A stretch of DNA of 57,935 bases from positions 1 to 57,935 of the forward strand of contig JAQUXC010000007.1 in NCBI GenBank assembly GCA_028692545.1. The letters are read 5' to 3'. Position 1 is the first letter of the stretch; every line of letters begins with the position of its first letter. The stretch comes from Patescibacteria group bacterium. Lineage in GTDB: Bacteria > Patescibacteriota > Patescibacteriia > UBA1558 > S5-K13. Shown here one piece after another: positions 134-57,935 of the stretch. A model generated the notes under the pieces. That model was not told the origin of the DNA, searched no databases, and worked only from the letters and a program-made list of their open reading frames with translations. A program made the position numbers and the translations under genes.

Positions 134-562
134 TTACAATAAAAAGGCTTTACTATCCAATAATTCCTTAAAATAGATATTTATATCTTCTAAATTTATC
201 AATTCTTCTTTACTAAACCATCTATACATATCATGGTCTTCATCTATTCTTACTTCCCCATCAATATTTCCTGTATAGCTAAGGCGTACAATATGATGAC
301 CTGGAACTATAAGAATATCTTGAGCTCCTATAAATTTTGGACTATCAGTAAATTCTAGTCCTGTTTCTTCTTTTATTTCACGCTTTAAATTTTCCAAAAG
401 TGTAATCCCAGATTCAATTCTTCCGCCAACAATATCCCATCTTCCAGTATTTTTTGTTTCTGGATATTTTTCTAGTGATCGACGAAGTAATAAATATTTA
501 TTCTCTTTATTTTTTAATAAAATTTTTACCCCAACTTGTAGCATTATATTTTCATTTATCAT
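134..562 (-). CDS. Nudix hydrolase (island copy 1)
   Basis: A 142-residue single-domain Nudix protein. These enzymes hydrolyse nucleoside diphosphates linked to another group, using a Mg2+-binding Nudix box. The box lies at residues 47-69 and ends in REIKEETGL (61-69), so the catalytic REUxEE core is intact. The first conserved Glu of the G-x5-E part is replaced by Ile at position 53, and an acidic residue (E50) lies nearby. The start overlaps the stop of the upstream GNAT gene by 4 bases (ATGA), so the two are probably translationally coupled. It is the last gene of the run and ends next to the IS. The substrate cannot be read from the sequence. Confidence 0.9.
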   Translation of the reverse strand: MINENIMLQVGVKILLKNKENKYLLLRRSLEKYPETKNTGRWDIVGGRIESGITLLENLKREIKEETGLEFTDSPKFIGAQDILIVPGHHIVRLSYTGNIDGEVRIDEDHDMYRWFSKEELINLEDINIYFKELLDSKAFLL

Positions 563-1068
563 TTTGACTTATTATATAATTTTTTATCTGTATCTATAAA
601 ATCAACTTCAGTCTCTTTGGATAATTTTTGAAATAGTGGTTTTAATTTTTCTTCACCATCAGTAGAATAAGATGATGACTCAAGTCCAAAACAGTTTTTC
701 TTTGCAAATTTGAAAACTTCCTCTGTCAATTTGCTAGCATATCCCATACCTTGATATTCTGGATCAATAGACAAAAATTTTATCCAATATATATTTTCCC
801 GATAAGGATTCTTTTCCAACTCACACAATCCAACAACTATATCATTTATCTTAATAATTGAATAATACTTATTTTCTTTGTTTTCTGATAATTCAGAAAC
901 ACGGAAATACTTAAAAACCCCACCTTTTTTAGAATCCAAAAAACGCTCATCTTGCGGTAAAGATTCATTTTGATAAATAATATTTAAAAGCTCGTCACTA
1001 GTAATTGTTTCTGTACTAATATTCAAATTTTCTCTTTTTTCAAAATTTTGTTCTTTTTCTAAATTCAT
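559..1068 (-). CDS. GNAT-family N-acetyltransferase
   Basis: A 169-residue protein with a GNAT fold signature: beta-strand WIKFLSID followed by the acetyl-CoA pyrophosphate-binding loop Q-G-M-G-Y-A in PEYQGMGYASKL (about residues 103-114). GNAT enzymes move an acetyl group from acetyl-CoA to an amine. The N-terminal 40 residues are charged and low in complexity. The gene lies 4 bases downstream of a Nudix gene and overlaps the next one by 4 bases, so it is part of the Nudix operon. The acceptor is unknown; a nucleotide-sugar amine or a small-molecule amine would fit the neighbourhood, but that is inference. Confidence 0.85.
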   Translation of the reverse strand: MNLEKEQNFEKRENLNISTETITSDELLNIIYQNESLPQDERFLDSKKGGVFKYFRVSELSENKENKYYSIIKINDIVVGLCELEKNPYRENIYWIKFLSIDPEYQGMGYASKLTEEVFKFAKKNCFGLESSSYSTDGEEKLKPLFQKLSKETEVDFIDTDKKLYNKSK

Positions 1069-1072
1069 ATTT

Positions 1073-1642
1073 TTAATTTTCTATAAATAATTCTTTTGCT
1101 TTTTTTAAAATATTTTGTATTTGATTATTATATATTGTAGGAACAAAATTTTTATTCCTTTCTTCCTCGTCCGAATTCAATAATTCATCAATTTTAAACC
1201 ACTTAAATTCTTCGGCCTCTCCTTTTTCAATTCTCAATTTATCAATATTATTTTTAAATTTATAAGCATAGACACTTGTAAATATATTGTTTTTATATAT
1301 TCTAGCTTCATTTGAAAAAATATATGATATATATATTTTATCTATAAAAATTAGATCTTCTTCTCTGGCTTTTATACTAGTTTCTTCCTCTAATTCTCTT
1401 ATTGCAGTAGATATATAAGAATCTCCAAAATCAACATGCCCAGAAGTTGATGCTGACCAAAGTCCAGGAAAAAATATTTTTCCTTTTGATCTTTTTTGCA
1501 TAGCTATTTCTCCATTATCATTAAAAATCCATACAACAATTTCTCTATGCAATAATCCATTATTGTGTACATTATCCCTTGTATCACTACCTATTACTTC
1601 ATCATATTCATTTACAATGTCTAATATATCTTGTTCTGACAT
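1073..1642 (-). CDS. Nudix hydrolase, IPP-isomerase/YfcD-like (island copy 2)
   Basis: A 189-residue protein. The N-terminal half (NEYDEVIGSDTRDNVHNNGL, then LHREIVVWIF) is typical of the isopentenyl-diphosphate isomerase-like Nudix group that includes YfcD. The Nudix box lies at residues 68-90 (GHVDFGD...RELEEETSI); the first Glu is Asp and the late Gly is Ser. Both changes are tolerated in the IDI-like subfamily. True type 1 IDI needs particular Cys and Glu residues that I cannot place here, so a hydrolase is more likely than an isomerase. It is in the Nudix operon, 4 bases upstream of the acetyltransferase gene. Confidence 0.88.
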   Translation of the reverse strand: MSEQDILDIVNEYDEVIGSDTRDNVHNNGLLHREIVVWIFNDNGEIAMQKRSKGKIFFPGLWSASTSGHVDFGDSYISTAIRELEEETSIKAREEDLIFIDKIYISYIFSNEARIYKNNIFTSVYAYKFKNNIDKLRIEKGEAEEFKWFKIDELLNSDEEERNKNFVPTIYNNQIQNILKKAKELFIEN

Positions 1643-1659
1643 ATATTTTTGAATATTAA

Positions 1660-2082
1660 TTATTTCAAAATATTTTTATTAATTAAATCTGGTATTATTT
1701 TGTTTCTAATTATTGGGGATACTTTTTCATTATTGATATCGTTTTTGGAAATCCAATGCAAAGATCCTATTTCTGAGTGTGCAACTGGCTCACCTACTAA
1801 TTTTCCTATATACAATTTTATCATGACGTCTTTTCCTGGTGTAGCAGCTATGTCAGTATATTCATTTATAAATTTTATACTACCAATATCTATTTCACAA
1901 TTTAATTCTTCTTTTATTTCTCTTTGCAAACATTTGATATCTGACTCTTTCTCAAATTGTCCGCCAGGCATCAAATATTGTACAACACTTTTATCTTCAT
2001 ATTTTTCACCTGGTTCACAAACCAAAAAACTATCCTCATTTTTACTCAGTACCAATAATCCAATTTTATTATAATATGCCAT
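1660..2082 (-). CDS. Nudix hydrolase (island copy 3)
   Basis: A 140-residue single-domain Nudix protein. The box is at residues 40-62: PGGQFEKES then REIKEEL. The REUxEE core and the first Glu are intact, but the late Gly is Asn (position 61). The N-terminus IGLLVLSKNEDSFLVCEPG forms the first beta-strand with a Cys-containing edge. An antisense open frame over the same bases is a shadow of this gene. It starts 4 bases after the small gene upstream of it on the minus strand, so it is operonic. The substrate is unknown. Confidence 0.88.
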   Translation of the reverse strand: MAYYNKIGLLVLSKNEDSFLVCEPGEKYEDKSVVQYLMPGGQFEKESDIKCLQREIKEELNCEIDIGSIKFINEYTDIAATPGKDVMIKLYIGKLVGEPVAHSEIGSLHWISKNDINNEKVSPIIRNKIIPDLINKNILK

Positions 2083-2086
2083 AAAA

Positions 2087-2299
2087 TTATTTCTTTTTTA
2101 CAACATAAACAATATCAGTAGTTTGTTCTTCATTATTCAAAAAACAATCTACTATTTTGTCTATTACTTCATAAAAAATTATTTCATCTTTTTCATGAAC
2201 TCTAATAATTTCACCTTTTGAAAGTGGTATTCCGCCAATTATTTCTTTTGTTGTTTCACTTCCATCGTCTTGAAATATAATTGTTGTATTTTTTTTCAT
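2087..2299 (-). CDS. Small protein of unknown function in the Nudix island
   Basis: A 70-residue protein that I do not recognise. It looks like a small beta-rich domain: alternating hydrophobic and charged strands (TTIIFQDDGS, GEIIRVHEKDEI, TDIVYVVKKK) with no membrane segment, no signal peptide and a single Cys. It is held between two Nudix genes with 4- and 21-base gaps in an operon of enzymes, which supports it being a real gene and a partner or regulator of the island. A Lys-rich C-terminus ends the protein. Confidence 0.65.
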   Translation of the reverse strand: MKKNTTIIFQDDGSETTKEIIGGIPLSKGEIIRVHEKDEIIFYEVIDKIVDCFLNNEEQTTDIVYVVKKK

Positions 2300-2320
2300 A
2301 TTAATAATATATATTAAATA

Positions 2321-2815
2321 TTAAGGACAAAACTCATCAAATAAATCTTTTATACTTTTTAAAAATTTATCGGGGTTTGTTTCTAATTCATGTTTCAATT
2401 CTTCTTTTGTAAACCACTTTATACTTTCAACCTCACTCTTTTGTAATACAAATTCTTCCTCTGATTTATCAATTTTCAAGAAATACCATTGATCAAAATA
2501 ATTATGATCTCCTCTCATTCTCTTCTTTGGACCAATACATGACTTAATATTTTTTAGTCCAATTTCTTCCTCCGCCTCTTTTATAATATTTTCTTCATAA
2601 CTTTCTCCCTCATCAACTGTTCCTGCTACTGCTGGTCCCCATTTTCCTGGATCATGAGATTTTGTAAGGGCACGTTGAGCAAGTAAAATATCGCCATTAC
2701 TATTTGTAATCCACAAAGCTGAAACGCGATAAATATCATCTTTCATAACAAAATTTCTATTCTTTGATCCAATTTCATTATCGTTTTCATCAACAATTAT
2801 TATTTTTTCACTCAT
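2321..2815 (-). CDS. Nudix hydrolase, IPP-isomerase-like (island copy 4)
   Basis: A 164-residue protein of the IDI-like Nudix group: IIIVDENDNEIGSKNR at the N-terminus, RVSALWITNSNGDILLAQR as the first strand pair, then the Nudix box at residues 65-87 (GTVDEGESYEE...KEAEEEIGL). The catalytic Arg of REUxEE is a Lys (79), a conservative change seen in this group. It is a different subfamily member from copy 2, sharing the DENDNEIG-type N-terminus but little else, so the two are not a recent duplication. It sits 4 bases from the next Nudix gene. Confidence 0.88.
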   Translation of the reverse strand: MSEKIIIVDENDNEIGSKNRNFVMKDDIYRVSALWITNSNGDILLAQRALTKSHDPGKWGPAVAGTVDEGESYEENIIKEAEEEIGLKNIKSCIGPKKRMRGDHNYFDQWYFLKIDKSEEEFVLQKSEVESIKWFTKEELKHELETNPDKFLKSIKDLFDEFCP

Positions 2816-2819
2816 AAAT

Positions 2820-3341
2820 TTACAATAAATTTAAAAAATCCAAACCTAAATAAGCAGCTTGTAAATCAGTTGACTGTCCAGTTTTTAAATATTTTCTAAA
2901 ATCAGGAATTGTCATTTCAACTATTTCTATAAATTCCAAATCATCTGATTTTGGTTCTTGCTTCTTATAACAATCTGTAGCTACAAAACAATGTCTTACT
3001 CTTGATGAATAGGCATCATTTGGACCTGATGCTACAAATTTTATATTACCAACATAACCAGTTTCTTCTAACAATTCTCTCGCAATTGCTTGTTCTTTGG
3101 TTTCCTTACCAATCTCCATACCTCCACCAGGAAGTTCCAAAAATTCTTTTTCAGGGCCAGGTCTAAATTGTTTTGCTAGAAGCACTTTGTTTTCTTTTGT
3201 AAGAGCCAATACGCAAACACTTTGACCTTCTTTGAAAATTTCAAAATCTTGTTCTTTTCCATTTGGCAAAATAAATTTTTTGAGAGTTACTTTTCTCCAA
3301 CCATCTTTTATCAATTTTTCATCTATTTTTTTCCACTGCAT
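2820..3341 (-). CDS. Nudix hydrolase, ADP-ribose pyrophosphatase-like (island copy 5)
   Basis: A 173-residue protein with the order typical of NudF-type ADP-sugar pyrophosphatases: an N-terminal strand domain (FILPNGKEQDFEIF), then VCVLALTKENKVLLAKQFRPG, then ELPGGGMEIG and a complete Nudix box at residues 74-96 (G...E80...RELLEETGY). The 'QFRPGPEKEFLELPGG' stretch is the family hallmark. Of the five island copies this has the most canonical box. Likely reaction: ADP-ribose or a related nucleotide sugar to AMP plus sugar phosphate. Assignment to the subfamily is from motif reading only. Confidence 0.9.
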   Translation of the reverse strand: MQWKKIDEKLIKDGWRKVTLKKFILPNGKEQDFEIFKEGQSVCVLALTKENKVLLAKQFRPGPEKEFLELPGGGMEIGKETKEQAIARELLEETGYVGNIKFVASGPNDAYSSRVRHCFVATDCYKKQEPKSDDLEFIEIVEMTIPDFRKYLKTGQSTDLQAAYLGLDFLNLL

Positions 3342-3346
3342 AAATT

Positions 3347-3937
3347 TTACAAATATTTTTTCATAATTTTAAAAACTTCTTCAAACATTTTTTCATGCCC
3401 CTGTGAGTTTGGATGAATTCCATCATCTAAATCATTTAAACTTACAATATTTTTCATTTCTACATAATCAAATTTATTTTCACTACAAATGTTTTTTATT
3501 TCTGTGTCATATTTTTCTATATTTTCATTATCATAATACACTCTATCATCCCAATACACAGGCATTGTTTTTGACTCATCAACACGCGTAAGACCTACAA
3601 AGACAACTTTGTTTTTCATTTTCTTTGCAATTTTTATAAGACGCAAAAAATTTTTATTGAATTCTTTTAAGCTTACAAGTGGATTGTCTTTGCTTTTTAT
3701 ATAGCTAGAATCATTTGTTCCAATAGCAAATATAGCAAAATCTGATTTTCTTATTTTTGCTTCAGATTCAAATCTCTTTAGCAAATCTTTTGTTGTGTTT
3801 CCTGGAATTCCAAGATTGTAAACATTTATATCATCATGATTTTCTATACAATAAGATTTTAGTCGCTCAGCCCAACCACCACATTGTGAATCACTTGCTC
3901 CCCAAGTAATACTTGCGCCATATATACAAATATTCAT
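3347..3937 (-). CDS. SGNH/GDSL-type hydrolase
   Basis: A 196-residue protein with the blocks of the SGNH hydrolase superfamily: block I YGASITWG with nucleophile Ser9, block II Gly in NLGIPGNT, block III GTND in IFAIGTNDSS, and block V DGIHPNSQGH carrying the catalytic Asp and His. There is no signal peptide, so it is probably cytoplasmic. SGNH enzymes are esterases or acylhydrolases with broad substrates. It lies 5 bases from the fifth Nudix gene in the same operon, which hints at removal of an ester or acyl group from a metabolite also handled by the Nudix enzymes (inference). Confidence 0.88.
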   Translation of the reverse strand: MNICIYGASITWGASDSQCGGWAERLKSYCIENHDDINVYNLGIPGNTTKDLLKRFESEAKIRKSDFAIFAIGTNDSSYIKSKDNPLVSLKEFNKNFLRLIKIAKKMKNKVVFVGLTRVDESKTMPVYWDDRVYYDNENIEKYDTEIKNICSENKFDYVEMKNIVSLNDLDDGIHPNSQGHEKMFEEVFKIMKKYL

Positions 3938-3941
3938 AAGA

Positions 3942-4124
3942 TTATTTATTATATTTCTTACTCAATTCGTTTAAAAATTTTATAAGTGGTTTTCTCCAGT
4001 CTTCTTCTAATTGAGTTCTAATAAATTTAATAATATTTTTATCTTCATAACCTTTTTTAACAATTTCTCCAGTTTTATACAAAAGCTGTTCTAAATCATT
4101 TTTTATTTCATTTAAATCTATCAT
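3942..4124 (-). CDS. Small helical protein of unknown function
   Basis: A 60-residue protein, mostly predicted helix with many charged residues (IDLNEIKNDLEQLLYKTGE, then a DWRKPLIKFLNELSKK end). No signal peptide or membrane segment. It sits 4 bases from the SGNH hydrolase gene and 27 bases from the deoxyribosyltransferase-like gene in the same orientation, which is the main reason to accept it as a gene. I do not recognise a family. Confidence 0.55.
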   Translation of the reverse strand: MIDLNEIKNDLEQLLYKTGEIVKKGYEDKNIIKFIRTQLEEDWRKPLIKFLNELSKKYNK

Positions 4125-4151
4125 AATAAAAATTAATTAAAAATATTATTT

Positions 4152-4526
4152 TTATTTTTCTTTAGCCCAAACAATAATATCATTTATATCATCAGGAAAT
4201 TTTGGATAAAAAATAGGAATATTATTTTCTATTGCATAATCAACTTCATCTTTTGCACCACGGGATTCCTCCCATCCTGGCATAGCCAAAACTGAATCAC
4301 TAACATCTGTTAGAAATCTTTTGTTCATAGTTTTATAGAATTCATCATTTGATATATCATCATCCCAACGAGATGAAGTATGAATATGTGGACAATAAAA
4401 ACCTATATTGTGAGATGCTAATGCTTTTTGAAAAGATTCTGCTTTTTTTATATTATATAGAACAAAATTTTTATCTTTTTTGTCCCAACCAGTAGTTAGT
4501 GGGCCAGCAATAAATACAATTTTCAT
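4152..4526 (-). CDS. Nucleoside 2-deoxyribosyltransferase-like / DUF4406 protein
   Basis: A 124-residue protein with the Rossmann-like pattern of the nucleoside deoxyribosyltransferase clan: N-terminal IVFIAGPLTTGW, a middle FYCPHIHT segment, and PGWEESRGAKDEVDYA, in which the Glu/Arg/Glu cluster lies at the expected active-site position of DUF4406-type proteins. The family cleaves or exchanges N-glycosidic bonds of nucleosides or nucleotides, or binds nucleotides. As first gene of the Nudix run it strengthens the idea that the run acts on nucleotides. Upstream is a hairpin-rich gap separating it from secA. Confidence 0.8.
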   Translation of the reverse strand: MKIVFIAGPLTTGWDKKDKNFVLYNIKKAESFQKALASHNIGFYCPHIHTSSRWDDDISNDEFYKTMNKRFLTDVSDSVLAMPGWEESRGAKDEVDYAIENNIPIFYPKFPDDINDIIVWAKEK

Positions 4527-4558
4527 AAATTTAAAATTTTAAATAAATATTTTTTGTA

Positions 4559-4664
4559 GTCATTTCGACCGGAGTGGAGAAATCTCGTTATTATTAAATT
4601 AAATAAATGTAACTTCGAGGTTTCTCGACTCAGTCCAGCTGAGCTGGACTTCCCTCGAAACGAC
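4559..4664. repeat. Imperfect inverted-repeat element with a nested palindrome
   Basis: The left arm GTCATTTCGACCGGAG... and the right arm ...CCCTCGAAACGAC pair imperfectly across about 105 bases, with AGAAATCTCG near the left arm matching CGAGGTTTCT. Nested in the right arm is AGTCCAGC-TGA-GCTGGACT (4632-4650), a perfect 8-base-arm hairpin. Elements of this type are dispersed intergenic repeats in many draft genomes. It fills the gap between the Nudix run and secA and may also act as a transcription end signal for secA. Confidence 0.65.
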
Positions 4665-4683
4665 AAATAATTGCTATTCTTCA

Positions 4684-7482
4684 CTACTCATTTTTTCCAC
4701 AACAATTTTTATATTTAACAGGAGTTCCATCTTCTTTTTTCGCTCCACACGGACAATCATCATTTCTGCCAACTTTATGACCAAATTTCTTTACTTCATC
4801 ATTCTTCAAAACTGATTTGTTTTTTACTTCAAGAGACTGTTGAGCTTCCCCTGCCATTGGGCTATCAGAAACATCAAATTGCCTACTTGCATTGCTTGTA
4901 GGGTTATTTAAGATTATATTTTGCTTGCCAGGATTGTTTATAAGATCAAATGCTGGACCAATTTTAAATATACTATAAACAACTTGATTTTGAATACTAT
5001 TTAATAAAGATACAAACAAATCATAGGATTCTCGCTTATATTCTACTAATGGATCATTTTGAGCATATCCACGAAGACCAATACCTGCTCGTAAATGTGA
5101 AATATTATCCAAATGATCTATCCAAAAACTATCAATTGTTTTTAAAAGTACTCCTTTTTGAAGTTCTGCTACTGGATCAGATATTCCCATACCACTTAAT
5201 GCAGTATTTAATCTTTCTTCCAACATTTCAAATCTATTTCTTGAAAGAGATGAAATATAATCTATAATTTCTGTTCTAATTTGAGCTTCTGATAATTTAT
5301 CTTTTGAAGAATCAAATATTTTTATTTTTTCAACTTCCTCATCTTTGAGTGGAAATATTGTTTTTACTGTTTCTATAATTTCTTTTGTATTCCAAACCGT
5401 TCCATCTAGAGACGCAGTATGAAATGAAATTACTTCTGATATTTCAGAGTCAATCATCTCAAATATATAATCTTTTAAACTTTCATAATTTTCTATTTTT
5501 TCACCCTCAGCCAAAGACAAAATATCTTTTCTTTTTTTGTAAATTATTTCTCTTTGTTTATTTATAACATCATCATACTCTACTAAATGCTTACGGACAT
5601 CAAAGTTATAACCCTCTACTTTCATTTGAGCTTTTTCTATAGATTTTGAAATCATTTTGTGTTCAATTGGAGTGTCATCTGGGTATTTCAAAGTATTCAT
5701 AATACTTCTAATTCTGTCTGAACCAAAAATTCTCATAAGATCATCATCCATAGAAACATAAAATTGAGAAAAACCAGGATCTCCTTGTCTTCCAGAACGA
5801 CCTCGAAGCTGATTATCAATACGACGAGATTCATGTCTTTCTGTACCAAGAACCAAAAGCCCACCATATGATTTTACTTTTTCATATTCTTCTTTGTTGA
5901 AAGGATTTCCACCCAAAATAATATCAACTCCACGACCAGCCATATTTGTAGCAACAGTAACTGCCCCAGCACGGCCTGCTTGAGATATTATTTCAGCTTC
6001 TCTTTCGTGTTGCTTTGCATTTAACAAATTATGTGGAATACCTTCTCGTTTTAGTAAATCTCCCAAAATTTCATTTTTTTCAATAGATATAGTACCAACC
6101 AAAACTGGCTGACCTTTTTCATGTCTTTGCTTTATTTCACGAACAATAGCATTAAATTTTTGTTCTTCTGTTTTGTATATCTGATCATTCAAATCTTTTC
6201 TTTTAATTTCTTTATTTGTAGGAATTATGTTTACCTCCAAACCATAAATTTTTGCAAATTCCTCTGCTTCAGTTGCAGCAGTTCCTGTCATACCGGACAA
6301 TTTTTCATACATTCTAAAATAATTCTGAAATGTAACAGTTGCAAGAGTCAAACTTTCTCTTTGGACTTTTACATGTTCTTTTGCTTCTATTGCTTGATGT
6401 ATTCCTTCTGAATATCTTCTTCCTGGCATAAGTCTCCCAGTAAACTCATCTACTATTATAACTTCTCCATCTTTTACTATGTAATCTTTGTCTTTTTTGA
6501 ATAATAATTCCCCCTTGAGTGCTGATTCAAGGTGAAAAATAGTATCAAAGTCAGCAGTAGACCAAGGATCTCTGCCAAGTCTCTCAGCAATATGATTTTG
6601 CCCATCTTCTGTAAATGTCACTGATCTCATTTTTTCATCAATATTATAATCTTGATTTTCTATTAAACCATTTACTACTTGTGAAAATTTTGCATATTGA
6701 TCTGTTGACTGTACATCTGGAGAACTTATGATAAGCGGAGTTCTTGCTTCATCAATAAGCACACTATCAACCTCATCAATAATACAATAATAAAAACCTC
6801 TTTGACTTATTTGATCCCTAGATATAGCCATATTATCTCTCAAATAATCAAATCCAAATTCATTATTTGTACCATAAACAATATCAGCTTCATATGCTTC
6901 TTTTCTTGATACTGGTTTCAAATAATCCTCAACTACTTTTATATTTTTTATACCATCATCATCGCTAACTGAATCTTTTGAGCCTTCATTGTAAATATAT
7001 GAAGCTTCATGTTCTATTGCTGAAACTGTTAGTCCTAAATAATTATAAATTTGTCCCATCCATACGCAATCTCTTTTTCCCAAATAATCATTTACGGTGA
7101 CCAAATGAACTGCTTTTCCAGTAAGTGCATTTAAGTATAATGGCAGTGTTGAAGAAAGAGTTTTTCCTTCTCCTGTTCTCATTTCAGCAATTCTACCTTT
7201 GTGAAGTGTAATCCCCGCTATAAGCTGTACGTCATAATGTCTTTGACCAAGAGTTCTTATAGCCGCTTCTCTTACCATTGCAAAAGCTTCTGGAAGAATA
7301 TCTTCTAGAGTTACATTGCCTTTTTTTAAATCTTCTTTAAAGATTAATGTTTTTTCTCTAAGCTGTTCTTTGCTTAATTTTTTTATTTCATCTTCTAAAG
7401 AATTTATTTTTTCTATAATAGGATTTAAAGAATCCAAATACTTTTTATTTGGATCTCCTATTATCTTTGATAATAAGCCCAT
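4684..7482 (-). CDS. secA: Preprotein translocase ATPase SecA
   Basis: SecA drives protein export through SecYEG. At 932 residues it is slightly longer than usual. Walker A is MRTGEGKT (101-108), the DEAD-like box is DEVD (236-239), followed by LIDEARTPLIIS. The PPXD, helical scaffold (IDHL) and second ATPase (TNMAGRGVDI) regions are in order. The C-terminus carries a zinc-binding SEC-C tail with two CxC/CC pairs (CPCG...NCCG), but about seven extra residues separate them compared with the common CxCxSGxKYKxCCG form. It follows hpf by 5 bases, a neighbour pair also known from Firmicutes. There is no Shine-Dalgarno sequence before the ATG. Confidence 0.98.
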   Translation of the reverse strand: MGLLSKIIGDPNKKYLDSLNPIIEKINSLEDEIKKLSKEQLREKTLIFKEDLKKGNVTLEDILPEAFAMVREAAIRTLGQRHYDVQLIAGITLHKGRIAEMRTGEGKTLSSTLPLYLNALTGKAVHLVTVNDYLGKRDCVWMGQIYNYLGLTVSAIEHEASYIYNEGSKDSVSDDDGIKNIKVVEDYLKPVSRKEAYEADIVYGTNNEFGFDYLRDNMAISRDQISQRGFYYCIIDEVDSVLIDEARTPLIISSPDVQSTDQYAKFSQVVNGLIENQDYNIDEKMRSVTFTEDGQNHIAERLGRDPWSTADFDTIFHLESALKGELLFKKDKDYIVKDGEVIIVDEFTGRLMPGRRYSEGIHQAIEAKEHVKVQRESLTLATVTFQNYFRMYEKLSGMTGTAATEAEEFAKIYGLEVNIIPTNKEIKRKDLNDQIYKTEEQKFNAIVREIKQRHEKGQPVLVGTISIEKNEILGDLLKREGIPHNLLNAKQHEREAEIISQAGRAGAVTVATNMAGRGVDIILGGNPFNKEEYEKVKSYGGLLVLGTERHESRRIDNQLRGRSGRQGDPGFSQFYVSMDDDLMRIFGSDRIRSIMNTLKYPDDTPIEHKMISKSIEKAQMKVEGYNFDVRKHLVEYDDVINKQREIIYKKRKDILSLAEGEKIENYESLKDYIFEMIDSEISEVISFHTASLDGTVWNTKEIIETVKTIFPLKDEEVEKIKIFDSSKDKLSEAQIRTEIIDYISSLSRNRFEMLEERLNTALSGMGISDPVAELQKGVLLKTIDSFWIDHLDNISHLRAGIGLRGYAQNDPLVEYKRESYDLFVSLLNSIQNQVVYSIFKIGPAFDLINNPGKQNIILNNPTSNASRQFDVSDSPMAGEAQQSLEVKNKSVLKNDEVKKFGHKVGRNDDCPCGAKKEDGTPVKYKNCCGKNE

Positions 7483-7487
7483 AAATA

Positions 7488-7781
7488 TTATTTTTTATAT
7501 TTTGTAATTTGTCTTCCTAATTTATCTTTTGCTTCATCAATTGCAGACATAATATTATTAGAATCTACAACAATTCTTATAAGTCCTTTTTTATGACTTG
7601 AAGTTATATTTACTTCAAATCTATATACATCACCTTTTTGATGATGACTACTTTTTGAAATATCCACCTTGCATTCTGTAATTCCAAAATTATACTTGTC
7701 CAAAGAACCTATTTTTTCATCAACATAATCCTTTAAATTTTGAGTTAACTCTACATTTTTAGCATAAAATTGTATATTCAT
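7488..7781 (-). CDS. hpf: Ribosome hibernation promoting factor, short form
   Basis: A 97-residue protein of the RaiA/HPF (sigma-54 modulation) family, which binds the 30S decoding region and inactivates ribosomes in slow growth. Family features: start INIQFYAKN-like strand (here MNIQFYAKNVELTQNLKDYV), KVDISKSSHHQKGDVYRFEV, and a final helix DAIDEA-like IMSAIDEAKDKLGRQI. It lacks the C-terminal dimerisation domain of long HPF. It is the first gene of an hpf-secA unit, with a promoter at 7816-7844. Confidence 0.93.
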   Translation of the reverse strand: MNIQFYAKNVELTQNLKDYVDEKIGSLDKYNFGITECKVDISKSSHHQKGDVYRFEVNITSSHKKGLIRIVVDSNNIMSAIDEAKDKLGRQITKYKK

Positions 7782-57811: not shown

Positions 57812-57935
57812 TGTACAGTTAACAGTCAAGGGTTACACTTTCTAAATACTTTTCATGAGGAGTAAGTCCGTTAAGGGTTAAATGTATTCTTTTAAAATTG
57901 TAATAATTTAGCCATTCATAAGGAGTGTTCCAAAT
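57812..57935 (-). mobile_element. Second IS end, inverted relative to the first
   Basis: The exact reverse complement of 4-127. The IS end, read from inside, starts TGTACAGTTAAC. Both transposase fragments point into the window. No matching target-site duplication is visible beside the two ends, as expected for two separate insertions of one IS. Confidence 0.8.
57819..57935 (-). CDS. Transposase C-terminus, second copy, partial
   Basis: The minus-strand copy of the same 38-39-residue transposase end as at 1-120, ending in LESVTLDC at the TAA at 57819-57821. It has no differences from the first copy over the shared bases. Confidence 0.8.
   Translation of the reverse strand: MWNTPYEWLNYYNFKRIHLTLNGLTPHEKYLESVTLDC

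Follow-up and report, generated by a model that had tools for sequence, protein, structure and literature searches.

A Nudix-rich operon behind secA in a Patescibacteria genome and a probable class-wide hotspot for nucleotide-damage-control genes

An operon encoding five Nudix proteins

The window analyzed here is a stretch of 57,935 nucleotides (positions 1 to 57,935 of contig JAQUXC010000007.1, assembly GCA_028692545.1) from a Patescibacteria group bacterium. Close to its start, directly downstream of hpf and secA, lies an operon of ten genes that encodes five Nudix proteins (N1 to N5), an acetyltransferase, an SGNH hydrolase, a DUF4406 protein, and two small proteins (s5 and s9). The operon and the features upstream of it are as follows.

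134..562, minus strand: N1, MutT-like Nudix protein (Pfam 64.8 bits; nearest relative 3grn, MutT-related, E 1.5e-14)
559..1068, minus strand: GNAT acetyltransferase (Acetyltransf_1, 40.4 bits), in ATGA overlap with N1
1073..1642, minus strand: N2, Nudix protein of the isopentenyl-diphosphate isomerase (IDI)/YfcD-like group (Pfam NUDIX, 63.5 bits, and nearest relatives)
1660..2082, minus strand: N3, divergent short Nudix protein (Pfam 34.7 bits)
2087..2299, minus strand: s5, 70 amino acids, predicted all-beta, no family or fold match
2321..2815, minus strand: N4, Nudix protein of the YfcD/IDI-like group (Pfam NUDIX, 74.6 bits, and nearest relatives)
2820..3341, minus strand: N5, Nudix protein nearest to ADP-ribose pyrophosphatase (Pfam 54.6 bits; 8wv3, E 2e-19; NudE model 48.9 bits, below its cut-off)
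3347..3937, minus strand: SGNH/GDSL hydrolase (Lipase_GDSL_2, 78.8 bits)
3942..4124, minus strand: s9, 60 amino acids, without a Pfam family
4152..4526, minus strand: DUF4406 protein of the deoxyribosyltransferase-like clan (DUF4406, 30.9 bits; cut-off 22)
4557..4670: palindromic repeat in the gap that separates secA from the operon (minimum free energy -39.7 kcal/mol, z -4.6)
4684..7482, minus strand: secA, anchor of the hotspot described below (SecA_DEAD, E 3e-122)
7488..7781, minus strand: a gene 5 bases upstream of secA that we take to be hpf (ribosome hibernation factor)

The coordinates of the open reading frames confirm what an original prediction, made from the sequence alone, had described as ten codirectional genes with gaps of 4-27 bases. 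All start with ATG and are read from 4526 down to 134, with successive gaps of 27, 4, 5, 4, 21, 4, 17, and 4 bases and a final 4-base ATGA overlap; 157 bases separate the first of them from secA. The predicted presence of several Nudix subfamilies was likewise borne out. Every Nudix protein scores above the curated cut-off of 21.1 bits and keeps the core glutamates of the REUXEE-type Nudix box (REIKEE, RELEEE, REIKEE, KEAEEE, and RELLEE in N1 to N5), the deviations lying outside this glutamate core (I in place of the first E in N1, KE in N4). Judged by their relationships, the five differ in subfamily, with no close paralogues among them: N2 and N4 fall near IDI/YfcD, N5 near ADP-ribose pyrophosphatase, and N1 near the MutT-like 3grn. 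Tests for specific enzymes gave negative results. N2 (70.7 bits) and N4 (54.1 bits) remain below the type 1 isopentenyl-diphosphate isomerase equivalog cut-off of 127, and the isomerase catalytic Cys, C67 in the Escherichia coli enzyme, is Ala in N4 and, by inspection, Ser in N2. The best score of a window Nudix protein against the E. coli MutT equivalog TIGR00586 is 27.9 bits, compared with a cut-off of 97.9. The genome as a whole carries 17 Nudix genes, the highest number among the 36 genomes of its order (range 2-17); among 134 genomes of the class, five others have 17-25.

No Pfam family matches s5 or s9, and a modest fold model of s5 found its best structural match at a nonsignificant E of 0.08. 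The DUF4406 protein matches its own profile only, not Nuc_deoxyrib_tr, and has no relative in the PDB, so that it does not qualify as a nucleoside 2-deoxyribosyltransferase; its single-sequence structural model (predicted local distance difference test score 39) was too poor to use as evidence. Base composition (20-31% GC in the genes, 28% in the window) gave no signal of recent transfer of the operon.

Nudix genes accumulate between secA and secD

A frequent gene order in the class is hpf-secA-[cargo]-secD-secF, in which secD and secF, the commonest non-Nudix families downstream of secA, were identified by sequence and, in the window's genome, by PF02355. We surveyed 86 genomes of this class, most of them from different genera and not chosen for a match to N4, and counted same-strand Nudix genes in the secA-secD interval, limited to 8 kb or the contig end. 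The count used a profile made from these loci, while the number expected was calculated from each genome's own Pfam NUDIX count and the length of the interval. The interval holds 55 Nudix genes, compared with 2.57 expected, and 50 compared with 2.49 when the window's own genome is left out. The excess is found both within the order, own genome omitted (28 versus 1.16), and in families outside it (22 versus 1.33), giving an approximately 20-fold enrichment downstream of secA across many genera. On the same contigs, control regions upstream of secA and beyond the interval contain no Nudix gene (2.18 and 2.65 expected, respectively). In the order, Nudix clusters lie directly behind secA in other genera as well. 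Other families also have loci as rich as that of the window: L092 6727-11790 (genome G085) and L125 (G103) carry five and six Nudix genes downstream of secA.

Among the cargo families Nudix leads by a wide margin, with 56 genes in 31 genomes. A tree was built of 104 Nudix proteins, a sample weighted toward hotspot proteins, of which it includes 69. None of the 69 is most closely related to another protein of its own genome, which rules out tandem duplication as their origin; 54 are closest to a protein from a hotspot in a different genome.

One cargo subfamily, recognized by the signature KKRGFGxGxWNGFGGK or a sequence near it, occupies 20 hotspots and only one other place in the sample. The single member that was compared with solved mammalian MTH1 matched it with an E of 2e-59. 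The positions of MTH1 N33 and W123 are conserved in all 20 hotspot members and the D119-D120 pair is intact in 15, D119 or D120 being altered in the other five; D119, D120, and W123 have roles in base recognition in MTH1 (PMC4801406). On this relationship and these residues, the subfamily is composed of close relatives of MTH1, an 8-oxo-dGTPase.

The other cargo confirmed by Pfam comprises Maf, Ham1 (RdgB), CYTH, MazG-like, HIT, cytidine deaminase, and pyrophosphatase families, together with MutM, UDG, NADAR, GrpB, DUF1653, ASCH, HD, HAD, and MsrA. By family membership, the recurring Maf, Ham1/RdgB, MazG-like, CYTH, MutM, and UDG genes are of house-cleaning or base-repair types, and the house-cleaning concept joins Nudix hydrolases with Maf, ITPases, and all-alpha pyrophosphatases (PMC3899018).

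The window's genes in other genomes

The original prediction regarded the ten genes as a nucleotide-processing module and proposed to look for the same gene order in related genomes. No second copy of the set was found in any other genome surveyed, and its members occur separately elsewhere. A system of fixed parts, conserved as an operon across genomes, therefore fails, and what survives of the proposal is its theme: a fixed location, enriched in Nudix genes and other house-cleaning families in many genera.

Relatives of N1 occur in 16 of 381 genomes, and in three others (G006, G024, and G108) they follow secA directly or almost so. Homologues of N2 include the first gene behind secA in G001 (45% identity) and a gene adjoining an SGNH homologue in G002 (48%). 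N4 has relatives in 15 of 286 genomes of the class, and in 7 of the 14 others these share the strand of secA and lie no more than ~10 kb downstream of it. Outside the class, N4 relatives are found in DPANN archaea and in other bacteria of the candidate phyla radiation (CPR); secA is not close to them there, and they usually lack Nudix neighbors. The subfamily is almost confined to CPR bacteria and DPANN archaea (L192-L271), with up to 64% identity to the window's N4, a distribution that suggests transfer between ultra-small prokaryotes of two domains. The idea that N4 and the DUF4406 protein came from viruses was considered and dropped, as neither has relatives in viral contigs and the DUF4406 protein has none in phages.

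A DUF4406 homologue (54%) lies 4 bases behind secA in G031. SGNH relatives are present in 8 of the 36 genomes of the order, the window's own included, mostly in other contexts; a homologue in G002 (56%) is clustered with Nudix genes, and in L213 an SGNH homologue follows N4. The G002 cluster (L020 1706-5835, from the same family) consists of a weakly deoxyribosyltransferase-like gene, a glycosyltransferase, a Nudix gene, the SGNH gene, the N2 homologue, and a further Nudix gene, with apparent genes for ribosomal proteins L10 and L7/L12 ~0.6 kb further on.

Discussion

The fixed location, the Nudix enrichment, the variety of subfamilies, and the mixture with other house-cleaning families are observed. 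With a probability of roughly 0.6, we propose that throughout the class the secA-secD interval is a hotspot that accumulates nucleotide-damage-control genes, and that the operon is the form it takes in this genome. The cargo would be transcribed behind the housekeeping genes hpf and secA, or from a promoter of its own behind the repeat. Its Nudix enzymes may differ in substrate and hydrolyze nucleoside di- and triphosphates that are damaged or unwanted, as well as compounds of the ADP-ribose type; this would keep damaged nucleotides out of nucleic acid and from accumulating, and the nucleotide pool clean. The GNAT, SGNH, s5, and s9 proteins could be passengers or accessory enzymes, and the cargo would change as genes are gained and lost at one fixed location, not by movement as a unit. 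The company kept at these loci by MTH1-like, Ham1, Maf, MutM, and UDG genes favors sanitation over salvage. Several results weigh against the proposal. About two thirds of the surveyed genomes have no Nudix gene in the interval, partly owing to contig ends, and the Poisson figures ignore shared ancestry, which makes their P values too small. The non-Nudix sanitation families, with 27 genes in hotspots and 1 in control DNA, were picked from the hotspots, so that this enrichment is partly built in. Added to the uniqueness of the ten-gene set, the window's operon has no MTH1-like gene, and the only copy detected in its genome, on contig C19, contains an in-frame stop. Finally, because the 157-base gap carries a hairpin, cotranscription of secA and the operon is uncertain.

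The reading that competes most seriously, which we nonetheless regard as unlikely, is that the secA-secD junction simply tolerates insertions and has no function of its own, Nudix genes being common and easily transferred in small genomes. The cargo does differ in every genome, N1 and N4 are patchy, N4 must be mobile since it is common to CPR bacteria and DPANN archaea, and transporters and glycosyltransferases are also among the cargo. A neutral site should, however, sample all families, whereas here Nudix far exceeds any other, the MTH1-like genes of the sample hardly occur away from the site, and pyrophosphohydrolases of several unrelated folds come together at it. It is improbable that the five Nudix proteins, SGNH, GNAT, and DUF4406 act in sequence in a dedicated pathway that salvages or breaks down one nucleoside or sugar nucleotide: the operon is tight, G002 again groups SGNH, an N2 homologue, other Nudix genes, and a weakly deoxyribosyltransferase-like gene, and an SGNH homologue follows N4 in L213, but the set is repeated nowhere and most homologues of N4, N1, SGNH, and DUF4406 lie apart.

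Nudix domains occur in conflict systems, and an insertion sequence (IS) end adjoins the operon, as would suit an anti-phage or conflict module carried by that element. We consider this the least probable reading. The defense role raised in the original prediction found no backing in PADLOC, where known anti-phage systems yielded only the generic Nudix model PDC-S07 (at most 44.1 bits) and a 13.6-bit match of s9, without partners, and the lack of viral and phage relatives described above also speaks against it. Mobility through the adjoining IS, suggested at the same time, found no support either. The identical IS end is found at four edges (the window's start, window 57876-57935, the end of contig C17, and the start of C19) and, recurring in this way at both ends of the window's contig C7 and on two others, marks breaks in the assembly; an IS-borne unit is thus unsupported, and the hotspot is fixed by secA.

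In the E. coli secM-secA-mutT arrangement a sanitation Nudix gene also lies behind secA on the same strand, with mutT 59 bases after secA; that locus has a single mutT and no array, whereas the CPR cargo spans several subfamilies, of which the commonest is MTH1-like, not MutT. MTH1 (NUDT1), an oxidized purine nucleoside triphosphatase, has close relatives in 20 hotspots with the base-recognition residues mostly kept, but these are bacterial and linked to secA. The YfcD/IDI group supplies the best matches of N2 and N4, yet both fall below every equivalog cut-off. The folds of the house-cleaning pyrophosphatases (Maf, RdgB/Ham1, MazG, and Nudix) recur in the hotspots (concept in PMC3899018), but these are known elsewhere as separate genes, and we found no description of their clustering behind secA. 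Among the matches listed from open-access literature on Nudix together with Patescibacteria, Parcubacteria, DPANN, or the candidate phyla radiation, no such clusters are described, an absence that carries little weight; as far as that literature shows, a secA-linked hotspot for probable nucleotide sanitation is probably unreported.

A more ambitious version, which we offer tentatively and would not ourselves bet on, is that selection has made the junction a damage-control island. The linkage of Nudix genes to secA, which secA-mutT parallels in E. coli, would have expanded into operons that coexpress up to six Nudix proteins and pyrophosphohydrolases of other folds with export and ribosome-hibernation genes. 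This would make up for a damaged nucleotide supply in cells that are reduced and presumably depend on hosts. Although Patescibacteria genomes are very small, 10-25 Nudix genes are present in some genomes of this class, with several of them lined up at one site. If that site is a sanitation island, it indicates what these cells cannot do without, its location suggests what many unnamed Nudix, Maf, and MazG-like genes may do, and the secA-mutT neighborhood of E. coli becomes a testable question. The hotspots also supply bacterial MTH1 relatives that are close to a human drug target.

Surroundings of the operon

One further feature lies on the other side of the operon, at the contig edge.

1..124, plus strand: right end of the IS, encoding a transposase C terminus (RIWNTPYEWLNYYNF...; rve_2, E 0.001, below cut-off)

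The copy at window 57876-57935 is in reverse orientation relative to this one. On C17, the same IS end and two glycosyltransferase-like genes precede the genome's secD and secF; both C7 and C17 terminate in that end. In the MTH1-like gene on C19 (G000:C19:1813-2178, L018), the in-frame TGA aligns with the codon of human W123, the frame stays open for ~34 codons beyond it, and an IS end is ~1.7 kb away; TGA is a stop in this genome, and the GNAT gene ends with it. The palindromic repeat at 4557-4670 has six further partial copies elsewhere in the genome.

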